Shown in pieces: positions 1 through 45,308 of a DNA stretch of 56,026 nucleotides; position 1 is the first letter of the stretch, and every line of letters begins with the position of its first letter. The stretch is from Clostridia bacterium (GTDB lineage Bacteria; Bacillota; Clostridia; Oscillospirales; CAG-272): NCBI GenBank assembly GCA_017502135.1, contig JAFVVP010000009.1, positions 1 to 56,026 of the forward strand. Direction: 5' to 3'. The notes under the pieces were generated by a model. The model had not been told where the DNA came from, did no database searches, and saw only the letters and a program-made list of their open reading frames with translations. The position numbers and the translations under genes are program-made.

Positions 1-9
1 AATAAAAAT

Positions 10-28
10 CCACCCGCATAGCGGGTGG
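10..28 (-). terminator. tnpA terminator / element-end hairpin
   Basis: Perfect 8-bp stem CCACCCGC/GCGGGTGG with a 3-nt loop. On the minus strand it is followed by a T-rich tail (bases 9 down to 1), so it can end tnpA transcription. It is also likely part of the transposase-recognised end. Confidence 0.75.
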
Positions 29-109
29 TATTTCATTTTCGGGCAAAGCCCTACCCATTACTGGCTGCGCACAAGTGCGCTTTAGATTGGCCTGCCAGCC
101 ATGCAACTG

Positions 110-589
110 TTACTTGCTACCCGTAAACGGGTCTTTCGGGTCGTACATACTTAACTGATCGCTTTCCTGATCTCTTTTCAACTGATCGCTTATGTACTCT
201 TTTATTGTTTTTGTGTTTTTCCCTACCGTATCCACATAATATCCTTTACACCAAAATTCTCTGTTACGGTAAGCAAATTTCATATTACCGTATTTTTGAA
301 ACATCATCAGACTGCTTTTTCCCTTCAGATATCCCATAAAACTTGATACACTCATTTTTGGTGGGATACTAACAAGCATATGTATATGGTCAGGGCACAC
401 TTCCCCTTCTGTTATTTCCACCCCCTTCCATTGGCATAGCGTTCTCAATATCTCTCGTATTTCCATTCGTTTCTCTCCGAAAAACACCTTCCTTCTGTAT
501 TTCGGTGCAAATACTATATGATACTTGCAATTCCACTTCGTATGTGCTAAACTATTTGTGGCGTTAAAATTGACTTCTTTCTTCAGCAT
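110..589 (-). CDS. tnpA: IS200/IS605-family Y1 transposase TnpA
   Basis: A 159-residue single-strand DNA transposase that cuts and rejoins hairpin ends through a 5'-phosphotyrosine link. The metal-binding HUH motif is visible as His-Ile-His at residues 68-70 (PDHIHMLV). The likely nucleophile is Tyr132 in the helix IKEYISDQ, following the conserved YYVDTVGKN segment. The length fits IS200-type TnpA and the gene looks intact. The Shine-Dalgarno GGAGG lies just upstream of the ATG but is buried in the 3' arm of a 12-bp stem (599-610/645-656). That resembles the translational self-repression known for IS200. No tnpB or guide-RNA scaffold is present. Confidence 0.93.
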   Translation of the reverse strand: MLKKEVNFNATNSLAHTKWNCKYHIVFAPKYRRKVFFGEKRMEIREILRTLCQWKGVEITEGEVCPDHIHMLVSIPPKMSVSSFMGYLKGKSSLMMFQKYGNMKFAYRNREFWCKGYYVDTVGKNTKTIKEYISDQLKRDQESDQLSMYDPKDPFTGSK

Positions 590-598
590 TTTAATGTC

Positions 599-656
599 CT
601 CCGATTGTGTTGTTTGGTTTTGACTGACAGGTCATCCTTATTTTACACAATCGGAG
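599..656 (-). promoter_or_regulatory. SD-sequestering stem in the tnpA leader
   Basis: Bases 645-656 and 599-610 are perfect 12-bp inverted repeats separated by 34 nt. In the minus-strand transcript the 3' arm ends in CGGAG and directly precedes the tnpA start, so folding would hide the ribosome-binding site. Known IS200 elements use the same principle to keep transposase levels low. Confidence 0.7.
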
Positions 657-693
657 TTTTTCTGTCTATACTCACCGGCAATAGCCTCTTTTC

Positions 694-716
694 AACCCCG
701 CCACTATGGCGGGGTT
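694..716 (+). terminator. Hairpin at the IS end, terminator-like on the plus strand
   Basis: Perfect 9-bp stem AACCCCGCC/GGCGGGGTT with a 5-nt loop and a TTTT tail on the plus strand. It is probably the left-end recognition hairpin of the IS. It may also shield tnpA or its neighbours from read-through. Confidence 0.6.
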
Positions 717-733
717 TTCGTGATACAAAAACA

Positions 734-759
734 GGAGCAGAGGTATAAACCTCTGCTCC
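734..759 (-). terminator. Terminator downstream of the small membrane pseudogene
   Basis: Perfect 11-bp stem GGAGCAGAGGT/ACCTCTGCTCC with a 4-nt loop. On the minus strand it is followed by CTGTTTTTG. It lies just outside the IS and closes the minus-strand genes to its right. Confidence 0.7.
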
Positions 760-782
760 TTATCTATTCGACAAGTTGGAAT

Positions 783-948
783 TTACTTACCCTCTTTATC
801 CTGTTTGGACACCAGAATGATTGAACCAACAAGCAAGGCAACACCAAAGGTGAAAAACACATCCAACTACTGTATTCAACTGATTTGCAAAGAAACCAAT
901 CATTCCACTGCCTGCCGCACAACAAATCACATGAAATGCCTTTTTCAT
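783..948 (-). pseudogene. Small two-segment membrane protein gene broken by a frameshift
   Basis: An ATG at 946-948 with a GGAG ribosome-binding site opens a frame beginning MKKAFHVICCAAGSG. It runs as a plausible first hydrophobic segment and then reads nonsense to a stop at 796-798. Shifting frame near 865-870 restores a clear second hydrophobic helix (VFFTFGVALLVGSIILVSK) with a charged tail and a stop at 783-785. A single-base indel explains this. I do not recognise the family. It could be a real pseudogene or an assembly/sequencing error. The stretch 590-1025 otherwise holds only the IS end and the hairpins listed. Confidence 0.55.
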
Positions 949-1025
949 ATAATCACGCTCCTTTGCTAAATTCCAATTTGATGTTTTGCTTTCTCGGAAA
1001 TACTATACCGAATTAGACGAACCAT

Positions 1026-2375
1026 TTAATCTTTCACGAATATCAGTGGCATTCCTTCGTCAATGATTGCTTCTCCTGCATCTGTACAGACAAAAGCAAC
1101 CAGCCCATTGCTTTCATAGAGTTTTCCGCGAACCTCACCGATATCTTTTTCGTTTGGTCCGTTATCGTCTCTGAAATAATGAAGGGTTAAATGCAGGACC
1201 ATTTCACCGTTTTCGCTGTCATATTCAAATGTGCCTGTATATTGACCGCCCATGTCTGTACCATCTGCACCCGCATATACACTAATTTCATTACCTTCTA
1301 TTTGAATTGTATATACATTCAAATATGCGTTGTACGGGTCGGTAGTGTATCGTGCTTTTGTCATAATTTTGACATTCTCTTCAGCAAAAGCATCGCCTTT
1401 GTATACCGATGCTGACCCACTCAAAAAATCAGCAATGGTATTTTCTGCTTCTTCACAAGAAACAATACTTCCGTTTGTTATCGTAACCTTAAATGTAACA
1501 TATTGTTCTATAGAATTGTCGTATTTCCCTCTGGTGCTGCCGAACACGAAATATACAACCCCATCTTCATAGGCCTGAATTTTTCCACTCCAACCGGTAC
1601 CCGTGTTTCCGTTTTCTCCATATATTGCCGCACAAGTCCACACACCGCCATTTGACAATGGTTCGAGTTCGGGAGATATTTCAGTCACACGATACTGTTC
1701 AAAGAACGATTCTGCCATAAGGTGAAATCTCGTAAATATGATTTCACCGGTTTCGCTGATTTCATATCGGCAGTAGGCCTCGCAAGGAAGTTGTTGTCCG
1801 TTTGAATCCATTGTTGCATATATATTTGCATAATTTCGCCCATCGTTATCAGTTTGAAGGTCAAAGGTGTAATTCTGCGGTGCATCGTATTCGTAAGGCG
1901 CAATATATCCGCTAAAGCGATAAATTTTCCCGTCCTGCTCAATGTAGAGAGGGTAATCTGTTTTCGCCCAAGTGTTCATCAATGCACCTGTAACATTTTT
2001 GTTAAAATACAAAAGGCAAAGTGCGCGCAACTCATCAAGAGTATCGAACTCATTCATCTTTACTTCTTGATATCGCTCATTGTTATACAGGATTTCATTT
2101 TCGGTGTAAGTTAATTTCCCATACTTCGTAAACAGTGAATATACCCATTCTGCCTTGTGATAGATATCTTCAAAAGTTTTTTCGGCGGTATCGTTGTTTT
2201 CATTGCTGTGCGTGTCCGTTTCATCGGAGTTACTATCACCTGTTTGTTCAGTCGCCGGTTCGCTTATTTCGGGTGTGTTCGGAGTAGTATCATCGGTGCC
2301 CGGTTTGATACTATTACATCCTACAAGCAATAAGATAAGTCCAAAAATGGAAATCAACACAATTATTTTCTTCAT
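1026..2375 (-). CDS. Putative lipoprotein of unknown function
   Basis: A 449-residue secreted lipoprotein. The signal peptide (MKKIIVLISIFGLILLLVGC) ends in lipobox LVGC with the lipid-anchored Cys at 20. A Ser/Thr/Asp/Glu-rich linker (about 24-64) follows, then a globular region of mostly beta-type sequence. Residues about 65-150 (an 'A-x-Y-x-LF' start, then a 'tlDELRALCLLYFNK' stretch) are reminiscent of IseA-like DL-endopeptidase inhibitor domains seen in other clostridial lipoproteins. That resemblance is from memory and weak. An AGGAG-type site precedes the ATG. Codon use is A+T-richer than in the genes beyond 4 kb, and together with the adjacent IS this suggests recent acquisition. Confidence 0.75.
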   Translation of the reverse strand: MKKIIVLISIFGLILLLVGCNSIKPGTDDTTPNTPEISEPATEQTGDSNSDETDTHSNENNDTAEKTFEDIYHKAEWVYSLFTKYGKLTYTENEILYNNERYQEVKMNEFDTLDELRALCLLYFNKNVTGALMNTWAKTDYPLYIEQDGKIYRFSGYIAPYEYDAPQNYTFDLQTDNDGRNYANIYATMDSNGQQLPCEAYCRYEISETGEIIFTRFHLMAESFFEQYRVTEISPELEPLSNGGVWTCAAIYGENGNTGTGWSGKIQAYEDGVVYFVFGSTRGKYDNSIEQYVTFKVTITNGSIVSCEEAENTIADFLSGSASVYKGDAFAEENVKIMTKARYTTDPYNAYLNVYTIQIEGNEISVYAGADGTDMGGQYTGTFEYDSENGEMVLHLTLHYFRDDNGPNEKDIGEVRGKLYESNGLVAFVCTDAGEAIIDEGMPLIFVKD

Positions 2376-2454
2376 ACACTTTATCTCCTTTGTGTGTTTT
2401 TATATTTATTTATTAGACGCATAAGCGTGATAAAAAGTTTCGTCAAATTGGTGT

Positions 2455-2631
2455 TTATTTATCCTTTTCAAAGAGTCCCCAAACACTCATTACAAAGCCG
2501 AGTATAGGGAGTATGGCACACGCCACTGTTTCAAAATCCTCACTTACAATAAGTATATTCCTAAACTCTCCCACCAAAACAAATGCCATACTCATGAAAA
2601 TCAATGCAATTCCAAACAGTATCTTTTTCAT
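2455..2631 (-). CDS. Small membrane protein, two predicted helices
   Basis: A 58-residue protein starting MKKILFGIALIFMS, with two hydrophobic segments (about 3-22 and 34-53) and a charged C-terminus (LFEKDK). The frame stays open upstream to 2805, but the ATG at 2629-2631 has a good GAAGGAG site about 10 nt upstream. The extra N-terminal sequence is unlike a protein start, so I chose the short form. It is transcribed in the same direction as the lipoprotein. Family unknown. It resembles the broken gene at 783-948 in size and topology but not clearly in sequence. Confidence 0.6.
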   Translation of the reverse strand: MKKILFGIALIFMSMAFVLVGEFRNILIVSEDFETVACAILPILGFVMSVWGLFEKDK

Positions 2632-2753
2632 AAAAAAACACACTCCTTCGTCAAATTCAGTTTTCTCGAACTGTTTACACATATTCAGTATATCATAAGT
2701 ATGCAGTATTTTCAATCTACAGCTCATATAATTTGCAAAATTGTTATAAGAAA

Positions 2754-2780
2754 AGTCTATGAGAAAATCTCTCATAGACT
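2754..2780 (-). terminator. Terminator of the DUF1015 gene
   Basis: Perfect 11-bp stem AGTCTATGAGA/TCTCATAGACT with a 5-nt loop, followed on the minus strand by TTTTCTT. It lies 29 nt past the stop codon of the DUF1015 gene. Confidence 0.8.
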
Positions 2781-2808
2781 CTTCTTTCCTATTTGTGTCT
2801 GACATCGC

Positions 2809-4041
2809 TTATTTCACAATCTTTCTCACTTCGAGGTAATATCTCTTACTGCGTGCTTCTCCCATGGAGAACGTCTTGCGCGGAAGCGTGCCGTGATTCA
2901 ACACGTATGGGAAGAGTTCCTCCTTGGTCATGCCGTCAAACAAGAATCCAACAGAATTCTTTTGTTCGGCAAGCGCCAAAAGTGAAGACTCGTCGTGGAT
3001 ATAATCGCACTTGACACCGGGGTGCGATGCGATATACGCATCAATGAAATCCTGCAGCGTGCCGACGGTCAGGGCGTGCGTAGGCGCGGTAAAGGACACC
3101 GTTTTATCCGTACTTTCGCTCACGACGCGCACGGTCTTTGCCCCCTCGCCCTCTTTCGTGATCGCGGTGAGGGATTTCATAAAGTCGGGGACGTCGCAAC
3201 CGATCACGACGCGGTAGATCGGCTCAAAATCGAGTGCCTCATCTTCGAGCGCCACAAGTTCCACCAGCGCGTACCGCGCGGGATGCGCTTCGGCATTTCC
3301 CTCTTTCGCCTTGATATTTTCATAGTGCGCCTTGGCGGCTGCAAGAGAATGATTTCCATCACCCACCGCGTACACGAGTCCCTCTCCGCGGGATGCTTCG
3401 TAAGCTTCGATCTTCGAAAAAACGGCGGTCAGTGCCTCGCCCGAAATGCAGTAGCCGGCGGCGTGTCCACCGTCCAGCATGAGATCGAAATCGTAAAGGC
3501 ACGGGTATGCGTCCCGTCCGGCGGCAACGGATGCCATAAGCCCCTCAGTATCGTTCATAAGGAGCATAACGTGCGGCAGCTCCAGCGGCGCGGCAGAGCG
3601 GATCGCTACGCGCGGCGGAATCCGTTCAAGAACGGTTGCTTCCGTGGCACGGACGGCAGGGGTGGAGCCTTTTTTGTAATCGTATTTTTCCAGATCGATC
3701 TTGCCGACGAGGCCGCGGCGGATACGTCCGTCGGGAAGCGTCCGTTCCAGATACACGAGGCTGTCGGTATACTCCTTGAGAAATCCGTTCTGCACGGATT
3801 TCATGGCGTCTGCGATGCGTGCTTTTTTCTCCGACTCCGCATCCGTTTCAAGATATGCCTCGGGAAGAACGAGATGCAGCGCGGAGGGCGCATTTTCGGC
3901 AATTGCCTCCGCTTTTTCCCAATAGTCGGGCTCGGACGTGAACTGATCGCAAGCGATCACTGCCCACGTTTGAAAAGCGGGATCCTTTGCTTCATAGGGC
4001 GGGAGCAAAAAATCGGCAGGAGAAAAAATCGTATTGCGCAT
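2809..4041 (-). CDS. DUF1015 family protein
   Basis: A 410-residue cytoplasmic protein of the DUF1015 family (N-terminal IFSPADFLLPPYEAKDP; central YAVGDGNHSLAAAKAHYE, the family's most conserved block). The biochemical role of the family is not established. In many anaerobes these genes sit near serine-biosynthesis genes, but no such neighbour is present here. The start is taken at the ATG at 4041 (MRNTIF), 8 nt behind GAGG. A GTG three codons further up overlaps that site. It is a single-gene transcript by the look of the flanking terminator and the divergent gene at 4217. Confidence 0.85.
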   Translation of the reverse strand: MRNTIFSPADFLLPPYEAKDPAFQTWAVIACDQFTSEPDYWEKAEAIAENAPSALHLVLPEAYLETDAESEKKARIADAMKSVQNGFLKEYTDSLVYLERTLPDGRIRRGLVGKIDLEKYDYKKGSTPAVRATEATVLERIPPRVAIRSAAPLELPHVMLLMNDTEGLMASVAAGRDAYPCLYDFDLMLDGGHAAGYCISGEALTAVFSKIEAYEASRGEGLVYAVGDGNHSLAAAKAHYENIKAKEGNAEAHPARYALVELVALEDEALDFEPIYRVVIGCDVPDFMKSLTAITKEGEGAKTVRVVSESTDKTVSFTAPTHALTVGTLQDFIDAYIASHPGVKCDYIHDESSLLALAEQKNSVGFLFDGMTKEELFPYVLNHGTLPRKTFSMGEARSKRYYLEVRKIVK

Positions 4042-4152
4042 AAAAAGCACCTCGTCTGTGTCTGTTTTGATGATTTATTATAATACAAAATCCGCTCTCT
4101 GTCAATTTATGCGAGGCAAAATGTAAATTTTTATTCAAAACGGGATTTTTCA

Positions 4153-4181
4153 TTGTGAACGGGGCGCGAATCGTGTATAAT
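4153..4181 (+). promoter_or_regulatory. Sigma-A-type promoter for the ABC transporter gene
   Basis: TTGTGA at 4153-4158 and a perfect TATAAT at 4176-4181 with a 17-nt spacer, about 35 nt ahead of the ABC gene start. Confidence 0.65.
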
Positions 4182-4216
4182 ATTACTGAAAATTTACAGA
4201 ACTCGGAAGTGATACT

Positions 4217-6172
4217 ATGGTAGGAGGCCCCCCGCCCGGATTTATGGGCCCGCGATCGGAAGCAACCGAAAAACTCAAACCGCCAAAGCCGAAAAGCATC
4301 CGCGAGGTACCCGGCTTTCTCAAAAGGCTGTTCGTGGATTTTTTCTCGCGCTTATTTTACATTTTCAGGCTCGTATGGGATGCAAAGCCGTGGATTTTAT
4401 TCGTGATGGTTTTCATGGCGATCTACAACGGTGTATCGCCCGTTTTGAACGCCTATATTGCCGCCGCGCTTCTCAACGCACTCGGCGATGCGGTAACCGC
4501 CTTTACCACCGGCGCCCCCTTCGTGTTTTCAAAAATTCTGTATCTGCTCCTTTTCCAGTTCGGATACATATTCGTGAACAGTCTCATCCACAGCGTATAC
4601 AATATGGTCATACGTATCGCGGGTGAACTCGTAACAAACCACATAAAGATCCGGATCATCGACAAGGCAAAAACGATTGATCTGCAAAGTTTTGACCGAC
4701 CGGAATTTTACGAAAAACTGGAGAACGCCAACCGTGAGGCAGGTTCGCGCCCCATTCAGATTCTGAACGCGTCTTTCCAGATCGTAAGTACGCTCATCAG
4801 CATGCTTTCGTTCGTGGCGATCCTCACGTCCGTGAGCGTTACCGCACCTATCCTTATCATCGTTCTGGCGATTCCCTCCGCGATCATCAATTTCGTATAC
4901 CGCCGCAAGAATTTCTTCTACATGCGCCGCCGCTCCAAGGAGCGCCGCCAGATGAATTATTACAGCGACATTATCACGAACAAGGACGCGGTGAAGGAAA
5001 TCCGCCTATTCAATCTGTCCGATACGTTCATCGGGCGGTATAAGGAGACGTTCAAGCGCTATTTCGCGGGTATTAGAAAACTGATCGTGCGCGAAGGATC
5101 GTGGCACATCGGTCTTTCTGCGGTGAGCTCGGCCGTGAACTGTTATCTGTTTTTGTATATTGCAAAAAAGGTGTACGAGGGCGTTCTCAAAATCGGTGAT
5201 TACTCCCTCTATACGGGCGCTCTCAACTCGATCTCAAACGGCGTAACGACGCTCATCAACACAACGGCGACTATTTACGAGGGCACGCTGTTCATCGACA
5301 ACATGATCGCCTTCATGAAGGAGGAGCAGACGGTAGTTCCCCGCCTCGCCGAGCCGCTTCACGTAAAAAGACACTGCGCGCACACCATTGAACTCCGCAA
5401 CGTAAGTTTCCGCTATCCCGGCACAGAGAAGATGGTCATCAAAAACGTAAATCTTCTTCTGCGTGAGGGTGAAACGGCGGTGCTCGTAGGCCTTAACGGC
5501 GCGGGCAAAACGACGCTCATCAAGCTCATCACCCGTCTGTACGATCCCACCGAAGGTGAGATCCTGCTCGACGGGCACGACATCCGCGACTACGATCTTG
5601 CCGAGTTGTACGCGATGTACGGCATCATTTTCCAGGATTTCGGAAAATACGCCGTATCCGTTTCGGAAAACATCATGTTCGGCGACGTGAAACGGGGCAT
5701 CATCCCCTCCGAAATCGAAGAGGCCGCACGCCAGAGCAGCGCCGATGCGTTTATTAAAGATCTGCCCAATGGCTACGATACGCCGCTTATGCGCATCTTT
5801 GAGCAAAACGGTATCGAGCTGTCCGGCGGACAGTGGCAGAAGCTGTCGATCGCCCGTGCCTTTTACAGCGATTCCGACGTCCTTATTCTCGACGAGCCGA
5901 CCGCATCGCTTGATCCTATAGCAGAGCAAGAGATATTCAACCAGTTCGACCGCCTGCGCGAGGATAAAACGACCATTTTCGTCTCGCACCGACTCTCAAG
6001 TGCAACTACGGCATCAAAGATCATCGTGCTGGAAAGCGGCATGATAGCAGAGGAAGGCACGCACGCAGAGTTGATGCACAAAAAAGGCAAATACTACGAG
6101 CTTTTCTCGACGCAAGCGAGAAGATACATTACCGAATCGGAAACGACTGAGACGGCCGCCACACCCCGATAA
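4217..6172 (+). CDS. ABC transporter, fused permease-ATPase half-exporter
   Basis: A 651-residue half-transporter that would dimerise to export an unknown substrate across the inner membrane. The N-terminus is Pro/Gly-rich, then a six-helix transmembrane domain spans about 50-340. The C-terminal nucleotide-binding domain shows Walker A GLNGAGKTT (425-433), signature LSGGQ (535-539), Walker B VLILDEP (555-561) and the switch His in VSHR. Order and length are those of MdlB/MsbA-like type I exporters. There is no second half-gene next to it, so a homodimer or a distant partner is implied. Substrate cannot be told from sequence. Confidence 0.9.
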   Translation: MVGGPPPGFMGPRSEATEKLKPPKPKSIREVPGFLKRLFVDFFSRLFYIFRLVWDAKPWILFVMVFMAIYNGVSPVLNAYIAAALLNALGDAVTAFTTGAPFVFSKILYLLLFQFGYIFVNSLIHSVYNMVIRIAGELVTNHIKIRIIDKAKTIDLQSFDRPEFYEKLENANREAGSRPIQILNASFQIVSTLISMLSFVAILTSVSVTAPILIIVLAIPSAIINFVYRRKNFFYMRRRSKERRQMNYYSDIITNKDAVKEIRLFNLSDTFIGRYKETFKRYFAGIRKLIVREGSWHIGLSAVSSAVNCYLFLYIAKKVYEGVLKIGDYSLYTGALNSISNGVTTLINTTATIYEGTLFIDNMIAFMKEEQTVVPRLAEPLHVKRHCAHTIELRNVSFRYPGTEKMVIKNVNLLLREGETAVLVGLNGAGKTTLIKLITRLYDPTEGEILLDGHDIRDYDLAELYAMYGIIFQDFGKYAVSVSENIMFGDVKRGIIPSEIEEAARQSSADAFIKDLPNGYDTPLMRIFEQNGIELSGGQWQKLSIARAFYSDSDVLILDEPTASLDPIAEQEIFNQFDRLREDKTTIFVSHRLSSATTASKIIVLESGMIAEEGTHAELMHKKGKYYELFSTQARRYITESETTETAATPR

Positions 6173-38464: not shown

Positions 38465-40303
38465 ATGTGCGGATTTGTTGGATTTACAGGACCGCGGCCG
38501 GACCGCCGCGAGATCATAAAGAAAATGGCGGACCGCATCATCCACCGCGGACCCGATATGGAAGGATACCATCTCGGAGACGATGCGGACGGTGTGACGC
38601 TCGGCTTCCGCCGTCTCAGCATCATCGACCTGTCGGACGGAAGCCAGCCGATGTACAACGAAGACGGCTCCGTCGTAATCGTATTCAACGGCGAGATCTA
38701 CAACTATATGGAGCTGAGAAACAGGCTGATCGCCGCGGGACACGTATTCAAAACCCGCTGCGATACGGAGGTTCTCGTGCACGGCTGGGAGGAATACGGC
38801 GAGAAGCTGATTCCGAAACTGCGCGGTATGTTTGCTTTTCTCATCTGGGACGCCAAAAAGAAAATCCTCGTCGGCGCCAGAGACTATTTCGGCATAAAAC
38901 CGTTCTACTATTCTCCCCTCTCCGACGGCAACTACCTCTTTGGTTCGGAGATCAAAAGCTTTCTCGAGCATCCGGATTTTCGCCGTGAGGTGAACCCCGA
39001 TGCCCTGCGCCCGTATCTCACGTTCCAGTATTCGGCAACGGAAGAGACATTTTTCAAAGGAACGTTCAAACTGCCGGCGGCACACTACTTCATCCTGAAA
39101 GACGGAAAAATGCAGATAACCCGTTATTGGGACGTGGATTTCGGGGAGAAAACGACGCTTTCGTTTGACGAGGCAGCAGACGCTATTGACGTGGCCGTCC
39201 GCGAATCGGTCGCCGCACACAGAATCAGCGACGTGCCGGTAGGCTCGTTCCTCTCCGGCGGTGTGGATTCCAGTTATATCACCGCAGCCCTCATGCCCGA
39301 AAACACGTTTTCCGTTGGCTTCGGTGAGAAAAAATTTGACGAAACGACCGAGGCAAAAGAGCTCTCCGATATTCTGGGTATCAAAAACTTCCGGGATGAA
39401 CTCACCGCAGAGGAGTGCATGGAGGCGTTTGCCGACATCCAGTATCATATGGATGAGCCGCAGTCCAACCCTTCCTCGGTACCGCTCTATTTCCTCGCAA
39501 AGCTCGCCAAAGAGCACGTTACGGTCGTCCTGTCGGGCGAAGGCGCCGACGAGATCTACGGTGGCTACGAATGGTATGACGAAACCTCGCTTATGCGGAA
39601 ATACAAGAAAATCCCCGCCCCCTTCCGCCGCGCCGCGGCTTCTGTCTCGGCACGTCTTCCCTACTTCAAGGGACACGATTTCATTATCAAGGGAAGCGGA
39701 CGTCCCGAGGATTATTTCATCGGACAGGCTCTCGTTTGGGACGAGAAGGATGCGTACAGTATCCTTCGCGAAAAATACAGATCCGGCCCTTCGCCGAGAG
39801 AGATTACGGCCCCGATCTACGACCGCGTGCGCGATCTCACCGAGCTTGAGAAAAAGCAATATCTCGATCTGAATCTTTGGCTGCCCGGCGATATCCTTCT
39901 GAAAGCGGACAAGATGAGTATGGCGCACTCGCTGGAACTGCGCGTGCCGTACCTCGATCGTCAGATCATGGCGGGGGCACAGATGCTCCCCGCATCCTAT
40001 AAGATTACACCGGAGAATACGAAATACGTGCTCCGTGCCGCCGCGAATAAGACTCTGCCGGACGCATGGGCAAACCGCACGAAAAAAGGATTCCCCGTGC
40101 CGATCCGCTACTGGCTCGCCGACGACCGCTACTATACCGACGTCCTGAAGTCGCTTACGTCCGATACCGCCGCCGAGTATTTTGACACGGAGGCGCTCGC
40201 ACGCCTTCTCCGTGATCACAAGGAGGGCGTCGCCAACAACGGACGAAAAATCTGGACGGTATATACGTTTCTCACATGGCACAAGGCGTTTTTCGGCATT
40301 TGA
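38465..40303 (+). CDS. asnB: Asparagine synthase (glutamine-hydrolysing) family, AsnB/AsnH
   Basis: 612 residues. The N-terminal class II glutaminase is intact: Cys2 nucleophile in MCGFVGFTG, IHRGPDMEGY, FNGEIYNYMELR and CDTEVL. The synthetase domain has the PP-loop FLSGGVDSSYITA and the downstream GEGADEIYGGYEWY. Such enzymes amidate aspartate, and AsnH-type members amidate D-Asp branches of peptidoglycan. Being 17 nt ahead of the D-Asp-ligase-like gene, this copy may do the latter; sequence alone does not separate the two roles. AAAGGA precedes the ATG. Confidence 0.92.
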   Translation: MCGFVGFTGPRPDRREIIKKMADRIIHRGPDMEGYHLGDDADGVTLGFRRLSIIDLSDGSQPMYNEDGSVVIVFNGEIYNYMELRNRLIAAGHVFKTRCDTEVLVHGWEEYGEKLIPKLRGMFAFLIWDAKKKILVGARDYFGIKPFYYSPLSDGNYLFGSEIKSFLEHPDFRREVNPDALRPYLTFQYSATEETFFKGTFKLPAAHYFILKDGKMQITRYWDVDFGEKTTLSFDEAADAIDVAVRESVAAHRISDVPVGSFLSGGVDSSYITAALMPENTFSVGFGEKKFDETTEAKELSDILGIKNFRDELTAEECMEAFADIQYHMDEPQSNPSSVPLYFLAKLAKEHVTVVLSGEGADEIYGGYEWYDETSLMRKYKKIPAPFRRAAASVSARLPYFKGHDFIIKGSGRPEDYFIGQALVWDEKDAYSILREKYRSGPSPREITAPIYDRVRDLTELEKKQYLDLNLWLPGDILLKADKMSMAHSLELRVPYLDRQIMAGAQMLPASYKITPENTKYVLRAAANKTLPDAWANRTKKGFPVPIRYWLADDRYYTDVLKSLTSDTAAEYFDTEALARLLRDHKEGVANNGRKIWTVYTFLTWHKAFFGI

Positions 40304-40320
40304 CGAAAGAGGTTTAATGT

Positions 40321-41550
40321 ATGAAAGAACAACTGATTCCGGTACTTCTCGGTGCCGATCTGAACTGTTATAACGTAGCACGCGCATTCCACGAAGCATA
40401 CGGCGTTGTTTCCTATGCGTTCGGACGGTATGCGATCTCCGCGACGAAATATTCCCGTATCATCCGCTTTACCGCAGTGCCGCAGATGGACGATGAAGAG
40501 GTTCTCCTCAAAACGCTTACGGATTTCGCCGATGCGCATCCCGACGCAAAGCTGATCCTATTCGCCTGCACGGACGATTATGCAGCGATGATGATGCGTC
40601 TGAAAGACAAACTGCCCCGTTATATTGCGCCCTGCCCGCCCGCGCATCTCCTTGACTCCCTCTCCAAAAAGGCAGAGTTTTACGAGATCTGCGAGAAATA
40701 CGGTATTCCGTATCCGAAAACGGCAGTAATGAGCGAACCGGCAAAATCAGACGCACTCACTGCGGAAACGCTCGGCTTCCCATACCCCATCGTCGTGAAG
40801 CCCTCCTCAAGCGTCGCCTACTGGAAGCATCCGTTCGACGGCATGAAAAAGGTGTATATCGCTGATACTGCCGACGAGGCAGAGCGGATTCTCGCCGAAA
40901 TTTACGGCGCCGGCTACAATGACAAGATGATCCTGCAGGAGTTTATCCCCGGCGGGGACGCGCACATGCGCGTTCTGACCGCCTTCTCCGACAAAAACGG
41001 AAAGGTCCGCGCGATGTGCCTCGGTCACACGATGATCGAGGAGCACACGCCGAAGGGACTCGGTAATCACGCCGCGATCGTAACGGAGCCGGTTACAAAC
41101 CTGCCTTTCTACGACAAGATCCGCCTTATGCTTGAGGATCTCGGCTACACGGGATTTTCAAACTTTGACATTAAATTCACCGGACTTGAGGACGATTTCC
41201 GTATTTTCGAGATCAATCTCCGTCAGGGGCGAAGCAATTTCTACGTTACCGCCTCGGGCATCAATATCGCCCGACTGGCGACCGAAGTATACGAATCCGA
41301 CGGGAACGAATGCGTTTTCGGAGAAAAACCGCATTTTTGGCATCTTGTTCCCCGATCCGTTGCATATACATACACAGAGGACGGCGAACTCGTGAAAACC
41401 GCGAGAACGCTCCAAAAAAGCGGCGAGGACACCTCCTCCCTTCTTTACAAGCCGGATCTCAGATGGAATCCCATGCGTTTTATCTGCGTTATGGAAATCC
41501 TCCGCCGTCAGAAGAAAAAATTTAAGAAATATTATCCGAAAAACGTGTAA
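40321..41550 (+). CDS. ATP-grasp ligase resembling D-aspartate ligase (Asl)
   Basis: 409 residues. The start LIPVLLGADLNCYNVARAF matches the N-terminus I remember for D-aspartate ligases (Asl of Enterococcus faecium), which join D-Asp to the epsilon-amine of Lys3 in the peptidoglycan precursor. The ATP-grasp core spans about 110-310: PIVVKPSSS, KMILQEFIPGG and the Mg-binding FRIFEINLRQGRSNFY. It is flanked at 17 and 18 nt by asnB and an aspartate/glutamate racemase, which supports this reading. An alternative is another carboxylate-amine ligase. Confidence 0.75.
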   Translation: MKEQLIPVLLGADLNCYNVARAFHEAYGVVSYAFGRYAISATKYSRIIRFTAVPQMDDEEVLLKTLTDFADAHPDAKLILFACTDDYAAMMMRLKDKLPRYIAPCPPAHLLDSLSKKAEFYEICEKYGIPYPKTAVMSEPAKSDALTAETLGFPYPIVVKPSSSVAYWKHPFDGMKKVYIADTADEAERILAEIYGAGYNDKMILQEFIPGGDAHMRVLTAFSDKNGKVRAMCLGHTMIEEHTPKGLGNHAAIVTEPVTNLPFYDKIRLMLEDLGYTGFSNFDIKFTGLEDDFRIFEINLRQGRSNFYVTASGINIARLATEVYESDGNECVFGEKPHFWHLVPRSVAYTYTEDGELVKTARTLQKSGEDTSSLLYKPDLRWNPMRFICVMEILRRQKKKFKKYYPKNV

Positions 41551-41568
41551 TCAAAACGGGAGGCTGCC

Positions 41569-42315
41569 ATGCATTCACCGCATCTGTTGGGCATTCTCGG
41601 CGGTCTTGGACCGATGGCCAGTGCCTATTTCTATGAAATGATCACCGCACACACCAAAGTGGAACGGGATCAAGATCATATTGATATTATTCTATCCAGC
41701 CGCGCCACCACGCCCGACCGCACGGATTTCATTATGGGAAGAAGCGCGGAGAGCCCCCTCCCCGCCATGATCGAAGACGCGCAGGCGCTTGAACGGTTCG
41801 GCGCACGCGCGATCGTCATCCCATGCAATACGGCGCATTATTTTATCGATCAGGTGCGGGCATCCGTCACCGTACCCGTCCCCAGCATCATAAAGGAGAC
41901 GGCACATTTCGTCCGCTTGATCGGTAAAAAGAAAGTCGGAATTTTGGCGACCGAGGGCACGGTTGCATCGAACGCATATCAGTCCGCACTTAAAGACGAG
42001 GACGTTGAATGGGTCGTTCCCGGCACCGAAACGCAGACCACGCTCATGCAGATCATTTACGATTACGTGAAGCGCGGCATCTCCGTACCGCCTGCAATGC
42101 TGTACGGCGCTACCCGCCCCCTCACCGACACAGGATGCGATTGCCTTATCCTCGGATGCACGGAGTTGTCCGTCGCCGCCAAGGAGTGCTGTGGGGATCC
42201 TTTATTTGTCGATTCCCTTGAGGTTCTCGCGTACCGCGCGATCACGATGTGCGGGCGGGAAACAACGGGATTTTCTCCCATGTTTGCAAAGATGGACCCC
42301 CTGATTCAAGATTAA
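41569..42315 (+). CDS. Aspartate/glutamate racemase family protein
   Basis: 248 residues. Both catalytic Cys are in place: IVIPCNTAHYF and LILGCTELS, in the Asp/Glu racemase fold with the N-terminal LLGILGGLGPMAS loop. By sequence style it is closer to aspartate racemases (the YgeA/RacD group) than to MurI. In context it would make D-Asp for the ligase encoded just upstream. If it were MurI it would make D-Glu for MurD, so assay is needed to separate these. Confidence 0.85.
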   Translation: MHSPHLLGILGGLGPMASAYFYEMITAHTKVERDQDHIDIILSSRATTPDRTDFIMGRSAESPLPAMIEDAQALERFGARAIVIPCNTAHYFIDQVRASVTVPVPSIIKETAHFVRLIGKKKVGILATEGTVASNAYQSALKDEDVEWVVPGTETQTTLMQIIYDYVKRGISVPPAMLYGATRPLTDTGCDCLILGCTELSVAAKECCGDPLFVDSLEVLAYRAITMCGRETTGFSPMFAKMDPLIQD

Positions 42316-42350
42316 ATCCATATTTTAGACAACTATAGAAAGGAAGCCGT

Positions 42351-43829
42351 ATGCTTCTGCGAGAATTGATCCGCGCAATAAGCGTCTCAGAGACCGATTT
42401 CCCCGATCGGGAGATCGAACGAATTGAATACAATTCCCGCAAAACCGACGGAGACTGTCTTTTCGTCTGCCTCGTCGGTGCAAAAGCGGACGGACACGAT
42501 TACGCCATGCACGCCTACCGAGGCGGCTGCCGCGCCTTTCTTACGTCGCACGCCGTATCTCTGCCCTCGGATGCCGTGATTCTTACGACGGATGATACAA
42601 GGGCGGCTTTAGCGCAGTTGAGTGCCGCGTTTTACGGATATCCTGCAAAGAAACTTCACCTGATCGGCATTACGGGCACGAAGGGTAAAACGACGACCGC
42701 CCTTCTGACAAGCGCCATTCTGAACGCTTCCGGCCGCCCCTCTGCCTATATCGGCGGCAACGGCGTGATCTGGAACGGAAAACGGATCGAAACCGTAAAC
42801 ACTACGCCGGAAAGCCGTGACCTGCACTGCCATTTTGCCGCTATGGTACGCGACGGTATCGAATACGCCGTTATGGAAGTATCCTCGCAGGCACTGGCAC
42901 ACCACCGTGTAGACGGACTCCTCTTTGAAACGGTAGTCTTCACTAATCTGTCCCCCGATCATATAGGCGAAGCGGAGCACCCCACGTTTGAGCACTATAT
43001 GCAAAGCAAATCCCGTCTGTTCACTGAATACGGGGCGAAGGTCGCCGTTTACAATGCGGATGATCCCGCATGGCAGGATGTTTTAGGCGATTGCCGATCG
43101 GAAAGAATAAGCTACGGCATCTCAAGCGATGCAGATTTCAGCGGCGACGATATCACGCCCTACCGCGACAGAACAACGCTCGGCGTTCGTTTCAACTGCA
43201 GAACACCCGATGGAGACGGACGGATCACCGTCTGTTCTCCCGGCACGTTCTCCGTACAAAACGCTTTGGCTGCTATGGCGGCAGCGTCCGTATACGGTGT
43301 TACCGTAGCCGAAGCGGCTCGCGCCCTCGCCAAAACGCCTGTGCTTGGTCGTTTTGAGATCGTGGAGGGCATCCCCGGCCGAACGTTCATCATTGATTAC
43401 GCACACAACGGCATAAGCCTCTCCCACGCGCTCACCGCGCTTCGGGAATATCACCCGCATCGTCTGATTTGCCTTATCGGATCGGTTGGCGGACGCACCG
43501 AGGAACGCCGAGCGGAACTTGGACGTGCGGCATCCACCTTGTCCGATTACTGCATTATCACCTCCGACAATCCCGATTTCGAGGATCCGGCAGCGATTAT
43601 AAACGATATTTTAGTGCACGTGCATAAGGACTGCCCACACGAAAGCCACATCTCGCGCGAAACCGCTATCCGACGCGCTGTGCGAATGTCCGAAGACGGC
43701 GACATTGTTCTCTTTGCCGGCAAGGGGCACGAGACGTACCAGCTGATCGAAGGCAAAAAAGTACCCTTCTCCGAACGGGAAATTATTTTGGACGAATGTG
43801 CCCGCATTTTTGAAGAAGAACAAGAATAG
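42351..43829 (+). CDS. murE: UDP-N-acetylmuramyl-tripeptide synthetase
   Basis: 492 residues adding the third stem-peptide residue to UDP-MurNAc-L-Ala-D-Glu. N-terminal UMP-binding domain, P-loop GTKGKTTT (109-116), and a C-terminal ligase domain. At the substrate-specificity site it reads DNPD (406-409) where meso-DAP enzymes carry DNPR; the missing Arg argues for L-Lys or another amino acid. That fits the neighbouring D-Asp-ligase-like gene, because Asl acts on Lys-type precursors. It ends the four-gene cluster and is followed by a terminator. Confidence 0.93.
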   Translation: MLLRELIRAISVSETDFPDREIERIEYNSRKTDGDCLFVCLVGAKADGHDYAMHAYRGGCRAFLTSHAVSLPSDAVILTTDDTRAALAQLSAAFYGYPAKKLHLIGITGTKGKTTTALLTSAILNASGRPSAYIGGNGVIWNGKRIETVNTTPESRDLHCHFAAMVRDGIEYAVMEVSSQALAHHRVDGLLFETVVFTNLSPDHIGEAEHPTFEHYMQSKSRLFTEYGAKVAVYNADDPAWQDVLGDCRSERISYGISSDADFSGDDITPYRDRTTLGVRFNCRTPDGDGRITVCSPGTFSVQNALAAMAAASVYGVTVAEAARALAKTPVLGRFEIVEGIPGRTFIIDYAHNGISLSHALTALREYHPHRLICLIGSVGGRTEERRAELGRAASTLSDYCIITSDNPDFEDPAAIINDILVHVHKDCPHESHISRETAIRRAVRMSEDGDIVLFAGKGHETYQLIEGKKVPFSEREIILDECARIFEEEQE

Positions 43830-43933: not shown

Positions 43934-44018
43934 ATTACAGTGTGAAACACTGACATACGCACGCTCCCCGCTTACAACCGTGCGGTACGTTGATTACGAA
44001 AATTCAGGAGGCTTTACG

Positions 44019-45308
44019 ATGAAACAAGACATGATCGTTATTTTGGATCTGGGAAGTGAAGAAAATCCCCGCCTTGCCCGCGAAATCCGTTCCCTCGGCG
44101 TGTACAGCGAAATCTATCCGCACGATATTACGGCGGCAGAGCTCGCGGCTCTTCCGAACGTAAAAGGCATCATTCTGAACGGCGGTGTGAACCGCGTTGT
44201 AGACGGCGTCGAGATCGACGTTGCCGACGAAGTACGCACGTTCGGCGTGCCGGTCCTTGAAATGGATCATAAGGGATCCGCTCCGTGGCCTGCAGACGAT
44301 GCGGCACGCACGGCCGCCATCTCCGATTTCGTATTCGGTAAGTGTGCGGCTGAAGCCAACTGGAATATGGAAAACTTCATCGCCGACCAGGTAGATCTGA
44401 TCCGCCGTCAGGTTGGGGATAAAAAAGTTTTGCTTGCACTGTCGGGCGGCGTTGACTCCTCCGTCGTTGCGGCACTTCTGATCCGCGCAATCGGCAAGCA
44501 GCTCACCTGCGTACACGTAAACCACGGCCTCTTACGCAAGGGCGAGCCCGAAGAAGTCGTATCCGTTTTCCGCGATCAGATGGATGCAAACCTTGTGTAC
44601 GTGGATGCGGTAGACCGCTTCCTCGACAAACTCGCTGACGTAGCAGAACCTGAAGAAAAGCGCAAGATTATCGGTGCGGAATTCATCCGCGTATTCGAGG
44701 AAGAAGCACGCAAGCTCGAAGGCATCGAATTCCTCGCCCAGGGTACGATTTACCCCGACATCATTGAATCCGGCACGAAAACAGTAAAAGCCGTCAAGAG
44801 CCACCACAACGTGGGCGGTCTGCCCGAGGATCTGCAGTTTGATCTCGTAGAGCCGCTCAAAATGCTCTTCAAGGACGAAGTCCGTGCCTGCGGTAAGGCG
44901 CTCGGCCTCCCCGACAGCATGGTATACCGTCAGCCGTTCCCCGGTCCCGGCCTCGGTGTGCGTTGTCTCGGCGCGATTACCCGCGACCGTCTGGAAGCTG
45001 TTCGCGAATCGGATGCCATTCTCCGTGAGGAATTCGCAAACGCGGGTCTCGCCGGTAAGGTATGGCAGTACTTCACCGTTGTTCCGGATTTCAAATCCGT
45101 GGGTGTGCGCGACGGTCTGCGCACCTATGACTGGCCGGTAATTCTCCGCGCAGTCAACACGGTAGACGCGATGACCGCCACCATCGAGGAAGTCCCCTAT
45201 GCCGTGCTCCAAAAGATCACCGCGCGCATCACGGCTGAGGTGAAAGGCATCAACCGCGTTCTGTACGATTTGACACCCAAACCGAGCGGCACCATCGAGT
45301 GGGAATGA
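44019..45308 (+). CDS. guaA: GMP synthase with a truncated, catalytically dead glutaminase domain
   Basis: 429 residues against ~510-525 for normal GuaA. The ATP-pyrophosphatase part is complete (LSGGVDSSVV at 141-150; HHNVGGLPE; C-terminal dimerisation domain ending LTPKPSGTIEWE). The class I glutaminase that should fill residues 1-~200 is reduced to ~115. It begins normally (ILDLGSEENPRLAREIRSLG) but the nucleophile motif GICYGMQ is VLEMDHKG (Cys to Asp83), about 75 residues are missing, and the His-Pro-Glu motif reads Trp90-Pro-Ala92. The start is the ATG at 44019 behind AGGAGG. It should use free ammonia or a separate glutaminase partner. Confidence 0.92.
   Translation: MKQDMIVILDLGSEENPRLAREIRSLGVYSEIYPHDITAAELAALPNVKGIILNGGVNRVVDGVEIDVADEVRTFGVPVLEMDHKGSAPWPADDAARTAAISDFVFGKCAAEANWNMENFIADQVDLIRRQVGDKKVLLALSGGVDSSVVAALLIRAIGKQLTCVHVNHGLLRKGEPEEVVSVFRDQMDANLVYVDAVDRFLDKLADVAEPEEKRKIIGAEFIRVFEEEARKLEGIEFLAQGTIYPDIIESGTKTVKAVKSHHNVGGLPEDLQFDLVEPLKMLFKDEVRACGKALGLPDSMVYRQPFPGPGLGVRCLGAITRDRLEAVRESDAILREEFANAGLAGKVWQYFTVVPDFKSVGVRDGLRTYDWPVILRAVNTVDAMTATIEEVPYAVLQKITARITAEVKGINRVLYDLTPKPSGTIEWE

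Follow-up and report, generated by a model that had tools for sequence, protein, structure and literature searches.

A conserved short form of bacterial GMP synthase that lacks the glutaminase site and probably works on free ammonia

The guaA gene described here lies in a window of 56,026 nucleotides (contig JAFVVP010000009.1 of a Clostridia bacterium) and encodes a GMP synthase of 429 residues in which the glutaminase site is lost and the glutaminase domain is shortened, while the synthetase is complete. The gene is a conserved variant of a known enzyme, and its product is probably an active GMP synthetase supplied with free ammonia, with the remaining glutaminase stub as a docking remnant. 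This reading draws on the absent glutaminase site, the complete ATP pyrophosphatase (ATPPase) and the conserved clade to which the protein belongs, as well as on the genomes that carry only the short enzyme, in which no GuaA-type glutaminase scored above the cut-off and IMP dehydrogenase (IMPDH) was nearly always present. The forms of GuaA are designated S (stub form), T (stub-free), F (full-length) and D (divergent stub), and a genome with S or T and without full-length GuaA is termed short-only. The features of the window gene are as follows.

44019..45308, + strand: S-form GuaA, 429 aa, stop included (coding 44019-45305); from the open reading frame and profile matches
44006..44011, + strand: ribosome-binding site AGGAGG, 7 nt ahead of the ATG; read in the sequence
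44019..44207, + strand: conserved stub, residues 1-63, the N-terminal half of a class I GATase; from TIGR00888, column conservation and dN/dS
44061..44096, + strand: counterpart of helix alpha1, approximately residues 15-26, which contacts the ATPPase in the GATase; invariant R21 (44079-44081) and R24, with the helix as described in the excerpted text of PMC10526850
44208..44318, + strand: residues 64-100, with a variable linker at the end in place of the Cys elbow and His/Glu segment of a full GATase; from motif counts and alignment
44319..44366, + strand: residues 101-116, last GATase helix and linker; from conservation and alignment
44367..45305, + strand: complete ATPPase (synthetase) and dimerization region, residues 117-429; from TIGR00884 and the invariant catalytic residues

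The reading frame runs unbroken from the ATG at 44019 to 45308, and the amination half is complete, both as the initial annotation had stated; in the profile search, TIGR00884 was matched over positions 1-310 of 310 with 455.1 bits against a cut-off of 338.75. By contrast, the glutaminase profile guaA_Nterm (TIGR00888) was matched over 74 of its 188 positions (1-74, residues 6-80) with 42.2 bits, below its cut-off of 172.15, and the GATase family PF00117 over positions 2-76 of 190 only. The complete class I GATase of a two-domain GuaA was thus not found in the window protein. In the alignment with E. coli GuaA (1gpm), window residue 80 was paired with residue 83 and window residue 101 with residue 194, so that 21 window residues stood against 111 across the gap, a deficit of around 90 residues instead of the 75-80 proposed initially. 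The catalytic Cys, His and Glu are all gone, as had been reported, and placing the Cys position near Asp83 is reasonable; the replacements His to Trp90 and Glu to Ala92 are alignment artefacts, the carrier segment being absent and residues 83-100 forming a variable linker. With these corrections, the loss of the glutaminase site and the shortening of the domain were confirmed.

The protein nevertheless exceeded the cut-off of 400 of the GuaA family model NF000848 with 534 bits, its best stretch covering residues 100-429, and this match would explain the 'glutamine-hydrolyzing' label in databases, which is likely wrong for S and T proteins. The window synthetase scored 404 bits against bacterial two-domain GuaA and 330 bits at best against archaeal subunit B. 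The neighbours of the gene, MurE and the malonate transporter genes madL and madM, were uninformative on its function. Upstream, positions 38465-43829 hold in a row an asparagine-synthase-type amidotransferase, a 409-aa protein, an Asp/Glu-type racemase and MurE, which we take to be a possible peptidoglycan cross-bridge cassette; by eye, the 409-aa protein resembles an ATP-grasp ligase, with no NCBIfam or PDB matches.

The initial annotation had described the short domain as long-standing decay, of which the long standing was borne out and the decay was not. Ten positions were the same in all 63 S proteins compared (D10, G12, A20, R21, R24, G27, V28, E31, G50 and P78), whereas residues 83-100 varied. 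The median dN/dS was 0.17 for residues 1-63 and 0.15 for the ATPPase, compared with 0.57 for residues 64-82 and 0.60 for residues 83-100; these rough ratios came from 134 moderately diverged pairs of 1953, with synonymous sites near saturation (mean pS 0.52-0.70). As judged from these substitution patterns, residues 1-63 of the stub are under purifying selection near the ATPPase level, with no sign of ongoing decay. Motif patterns were sought across whole proteins, not at fixed positions. The GxCYG elbow was missing from all 64 S and all 40 T proteins and present in 56 of 57 F proteins. The HPE-type motif was likewise missing from all 64 S proteins and present in 54 of 57 F proteins.

In full-length GMP synthases, the interface of the two domains is described as consisting mostly of alpha1, with the motif (K/R)(K/R)XRE, and of the ATPPase helices alpha11 (DXXES) and alpha12 (KD(D/E)V(K/R)), and in the Plasmodium enzyme PfGMPS a pair is formed between Lys24 in alpha1 and Asp412/413 in alpha12 (excerpted text of PMC10526850). 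On the ATPPase side, every S protein (64 of 64) had both DxxES and KD[DE]V[KR], and the latter was also seen in 6 of 7 divergent stub proteins. On the stub side, AR..R...VY was seen without exception in the 64 S and the 7 divergent stub proteins, whereas the strict alpha1 motif [KR][KR]xRE occurred in 1 of 64 S proteins versus 44 of 57 F proteins; through the 1gpm alignment, R21 of the window protein corresponds to the first basic residue of this motif. The docking contact between alpha1 and the ATPPase thus appears to be kept with the motif partly lost.

The synthetase retains its catalytic equipment. The PP-loop was present in 64 of 64 S proteins and K[ST]HHN in 56 of 64, the others having KAHHN where seen. 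Residues of PfGMPS involved in substrate binding and adenyl-XMP formation are given in PMC10526850, as excerpted, as Asp371, Glu374, Lys386, His388, His389, Lys411, Lys415, Arg539, Lys547 and Glu553. Mapped through motifs and through their spacing to the C-terminus, they correspond respectively to D247, E250, K260, H262, H263, K285, R289, R413, K421 and E427 of the window protein, and all ten were invariant in 37 S sequences. Use of ammonia by such a synthetase has precedents, since the isolated PfATPPase is reported to be active with NH4Cl, its kcat being 5.9-fold lower and its Km for NH4Cl 2.7-fold lower than those of the whole enzyme (excerpts of PMC4673825). The GMP synthases covered in the excerpted text of PMC10526850 also used external ammonia in vitro; their Km for glutamine was far below that for NH4+ (up to 174 mM, for the human enzyme), and glutamine is termed there the preferred physiological substrate.

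The S architecture was common to 64 sampled proteins, mostly from Bacillota and Bacteroidota. The closest relative of the window organism (G002, 91% complete) has an S protein with 95% identity and shows the short form alone. In a hand count of 59 relatives, the window genome included, an S form spanning the query was found in 9 genomes and a T form, whose match begins at around residue 118, in 30. Among the best 80 of 591 matches, S proteins were found in Flavonifractor sp. An82, Anaerotruncus massiliensis, Bacteroides oleiciplenus, Parabacteroides goldsteinii, Faecalicatena contorta, Caryophanon tenue and other named genomes, as well as in one Victivallaceae-labelled and one Kiritimatiellota-labelled bin, labels that may be wrong. 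Plasmid-labelled records comprised one at 80-90% identity and 17 at 60-80%, while the 17 phage records were all below 60% identity. In 11 loci of 5-12 kb, 0 of 10 other window genes were matched, and location was uninformative.

In the ATPPase tree, S and T together formed one clade (SH-aLRT 100, stem 0.74). The short form is therefore a clade trait, the possibility that the initial annotation had raised for checking. T also formed one clade (support 100/99), and none of 200 bootstrap trees grouped S into a clade without T. Since S alone never formed a clade, T is nested inside S, and it is most likely, on these sequence relationships, that the ancestor of T had a stub and subsequently lost it. 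The Bacteroidota S proteins were placed within the Bacillota S proteins, and the spread of S across phyla may reflect gene transfer rather than age. In the first ATPPase tree, the full-length copies L118 and L042 carried the T label by the length rule; for the second, L118 received its correct label, L042 was dropped together with L061 and L062, which are two of the three very long GuaA proteins, and the sets of 65 S and 43 T rows were reduced to 29 and 11, respectively. Six contig-cut rows (marked '?') were excluded from the trees. The very long GuaA frames, of 630-733 aa (L061, L062 and L063 in G026, G034 and G025), are 32-37% identical to the window protein; they come from the same bacterial family and have a glutaminase above the cut-off.

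By hand count, 24 of 59 relatives were short-only (6 with S only and 18 with T only, the window's genome uncounted), 19 of which were at least 90% complete; in the family sample, 42 of 86 genomes were short-only, the window's own included. The guaA_Nterm model found no match above its 172-bit cut-off in any of the 24 short-only relatives, G002 included (best 57 bits), or in 34 further short-only family genomes, three of which had matches of 90-110 bits. Thus, 0 of 58 short-only genomes besides the window's own had a GuaA-type glutaminase above the curated cut-off, while the controls were above it in 14 of 14 genomes, full-length enzymes scoring 193-258 bits. On these counts, the claim that such cells need ammonia or a trans-acting partner holds for the short-only genomes. 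Two further class I GATases, of 88-94 bits on the GuaA model, were found in divergent-stub genomes (G195, G171). The five sub-cut-off GATases are those of the short-only genomes G293, G302 and G268 and of the divergent-stub genomes G195 and G171; three of them (G293, G195 and G171) were classified, all as the TrpG/PabA kind with TIGR00566 above its cut-off.

A full-span match to IMPDH was present in 23 of the 24 short-only relatives, 12 above the TIGR01302 cut-off and 11 below it at 342-368 bits; three of the latter were tested (G045, G020, G046) and were above the cut-off of NF005493. The exception is G055, an S-only genome of 95% completeness in which IMP dehydrogenase was not matched and which would have to obtain XMP by salvage. 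The gene context was compared over 83 loci (62 S and 21 T) with up to four neighbours per side. Purine genes among the neighbour clusters were full-length guaA (13 loci), IMPDH (10), PurF (6), PurB (4), PurA (4) and PurC (3), and the other clusters were a tyrosine integrase (9), an ABC-type protein (8) and an HTH protein (7). One representative was identified per cluster for IMPDH, PurF, PurB, PurA, PurC, the integrase and the HTH protein, that of PurC being below the cut-off; the guaA cluster was identified by motifs and the ABC-type protein by eye. No riboswitch reached the gathering threshold in 15 loci. The integrase lies near the short guaA at L111:8141-9235 and at eight other S/T loci, and genomic islands are known to integrate at the 3' end of guaA.

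The initial annotation had also proposed a search for a second guaA in the window's own genome. The bin, which is 64.56% complete, does hold the start of an intact GuaA glutaminase, at the end of contig C2 (G000 contig, 1-4475, L193) together with purB, and the origin of this contig is doubtful. C2 was 97.3% identical in DNA to contig C12 (L194) of G023, a genome of another genus, across all 4475 bases, whereas the TrpS of G023 was 70% identical to that of the window, compared with 85-95% within the genus. The glutamate-synthase-like protein on C2 was 99% identical to its G023 counterpart and at most 68% identical to those of same-genus genomes. That the C2 guaA is the organism's own copy had a precedent in G003 of the same genus, in which purB adjoins a full-length guaA (its purB being 76% identical to the C2 purB), but was undercut by the 97.3% match to G023. 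Misbinning, judged partly on GC content, was weakened in turn, since the GC content of C2 (0.491) falls within the 0.442-0.555 spanned by 26 equally long pieces of the window and does not separate it from the window; contig C12 of G023 (0.477) was higher than two other G023 contigs (0.423 and 0.432). C2 may be a foreign contig in either or both bins, or reflect DNA transfer, and the preferred reading of the short enzyme does not depend on it.

Shortened enzymes also occur elsewhere in the phylum. A sample of 199 genomes held at least seven divergent stub forms (G163, G195, G171, G144, G145, G113 and G185) and, among the matches listed, an S form in G199 beside a full-length enzyme and other short synthetases in G094, also beside a full-length enzyme, and G203. 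No GuaA glutaminase above the cut-off was found in the seven divergent-stub genomes. The D forms fell among full-length enzymes in both careful trees; several independent truncations were considered and not adopted, as the AU test does not reject one S+T+D clade (p = 0.18, ATPPase). With the stub columns, a single S+D clade gave an AU p of 0.55, the constrained tree being slightly better. In G189 (L188), a GATase of full length has Ser in place of the elbow Cys and SPN in place of HPE; this domain is dead without having been deleted and is a possible intermediate. Two further sampled genomes, G067 and G212, share the family code of G189.

The simplest explanation of the short enzyme, we infer, is that it aminates XMP with free ammonia. 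In the ATPPase site, adenyl-XMP would be formed from ATP and XMP, and free ammonia would attack this intermediate directly. Free ammonia is plentiful in the gut, the rumen and digesters. The half-GATase would pack on the ATPPase via alpha1, with R21 facing D286/E287 of alpha12, and would act there as a docking or lid-support piece and not as a catalyst; the T branch would have lost this piece altogether. The docking role is proposed by analogy with the full-length enzymes, and against it stands the T form, which does without the stub. On a wider reading, S and T would represent a large unrecognised class of bacterial GMP synthetases working on free ammonia, in which the alpha1-bearing half-glutaminase was kept across phyla as a working part, for lid support or as an ammonia gate, rather than as a relic, and which would be the sole route from XMP to GMP in many gut Clostridia. 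We regard the chances for and against this extension as evenly balanced.

An alternative is that glutamine is still used, through an unrecognised glutaminase that docks in trans on the short enzyme. The stub retains the GATase face that touches the ATPPase, and the class I GATases of 90-110 bits in three of 34 short-only genomes and of 88-94 bits in two divergent-stub genomes are conceivable partners; a glutaminase from outside the GuaA family could serve in trans. However, GuaA-type enzymes above the cut-off were missing from all 24 and all 34 short-only genomes, the three GATases classified out of the five belonged to the TrpG/PabA kind, and among the identified neighbour clusters only full-length guaA and purF bear a glutaminase; we consider this alternative unlikely. 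Where both forms occur, S might instead have no enzymatic role of its own and serve full-length GuaA as a regulator or as a partner in a heterodimer. Full-length guaA is followed by S in tandem in Parabacteroides distasonis, Bacteroides cutis, P. goldsteinii and G057, the two genes in P. distasonis (S protein WP_022191716.1) being 51 bases apart and both annotated 'glutamine-hydrolyzing GMP synthase', and PfGMPS is described as dimerizing through the ATPPase (PMC4673825, as excerpted). Yet S or T stands alone in many genomes, and all ten mapped catalytic residues are retained, which makes a pure partner role very unlikely, although S may be redundant or different in role where a full-length enzyme co-occurs.

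That the S/T clade acts on another nucleotide substrate or takes another nitrogen donor is hinted at by H166 and N168 (44514-44522), which were fixed in 65 S and 41 T rows, whereas the F rows had mostly Phe (83%) and Asp (91%) at these ATPPase positions. The counterparts of the XMP-binding residues, R413, K421 and E427, are invariant, IMPDH neighbours the short gene in 10 of 83 loci, and 24 of 59 relatives have no full-length GMP synthase beside S or T, all of which speak against such a change, and we judge it highly improbable. An assembly error or a recent in-frame deletion in the window genome could be imagined for an incomplete bin (64.56%), but 63 other S proteins, some of them from named isolates, are built in the same way, which excludes assembly error and chance, and the stub is under purifying selection; the probability left to this explanation is negligible. 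Free ammonia as the direct nitrogen source remains the preferred reading.

None of the open-access titles and abstracts listed described a half-glutaminase or glutaminase-less bacterial GMP synthase, subscription papers and preprints being outside the scope of this search, and bacterial GMP synthases are described as two-domain enzymes in the excerpted texts of PMC10526850 and PMC9312489. If S and T do work on ammonia, guanine synthesis in many gut bacteria would be tied to ambient ammonia, GMP synthase in these bacteria would escape glutamine-site inhibitors such as acivicin and DON, and the 'glutamine-hydrolyzing' label would be wrong for the whole clade. The series of intact, full-length but dead, half and absent glutaminase domains would also provide a natural test of the roles of this domain besides ammonia supply.

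With the two-domain GuaA (1gpm type; NF000848, TIGR00888 plus TIGR00884), the S form shares the ATPPase, the dimerization region, the linker, the PP-loop, the lid, the C-terminal XMP loop and the first 80 or so GATase residues; it differs in the absence of around 90 GATase residues and of the catalytic triad, and in an alpha1 motif without the second basic residue and the final Glu. The archaeal two-subunit GMP synthase (GuaAa plus GuaAb; M. jannaschii, P. horikoshii) is matched by the T form, which is like a lone ATPPase subunit, and lone subunits of the archaeal type are reported to use ammonia in vitro (PMC10526850, as excerpted). Unlike in that system, no GuaAa-like partner was found above the cut-off in 58 short-only genomes, and S retains a fused half-GATase and scores higher against bacterial GuaA. 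The ammonia-dependent single-domain NAD synthetase is likewise an amidating synthetase on ammonia with relatives on glutamine, but the glutaminase there is of the nitrilase type, and the excerpted text of PMC3376133 holds the ammonia form to be ancestral, whereas the remnant in S shows loss. The archaeal PurF' without its catalytic Cys is also a purine amidotransferase with a dead glutaminase for which the use of ammonia has been proposed (excerpted text of PMC3261824); it differs in being another enzyme at another step, and in having lost a Cys rather than half of the domain.
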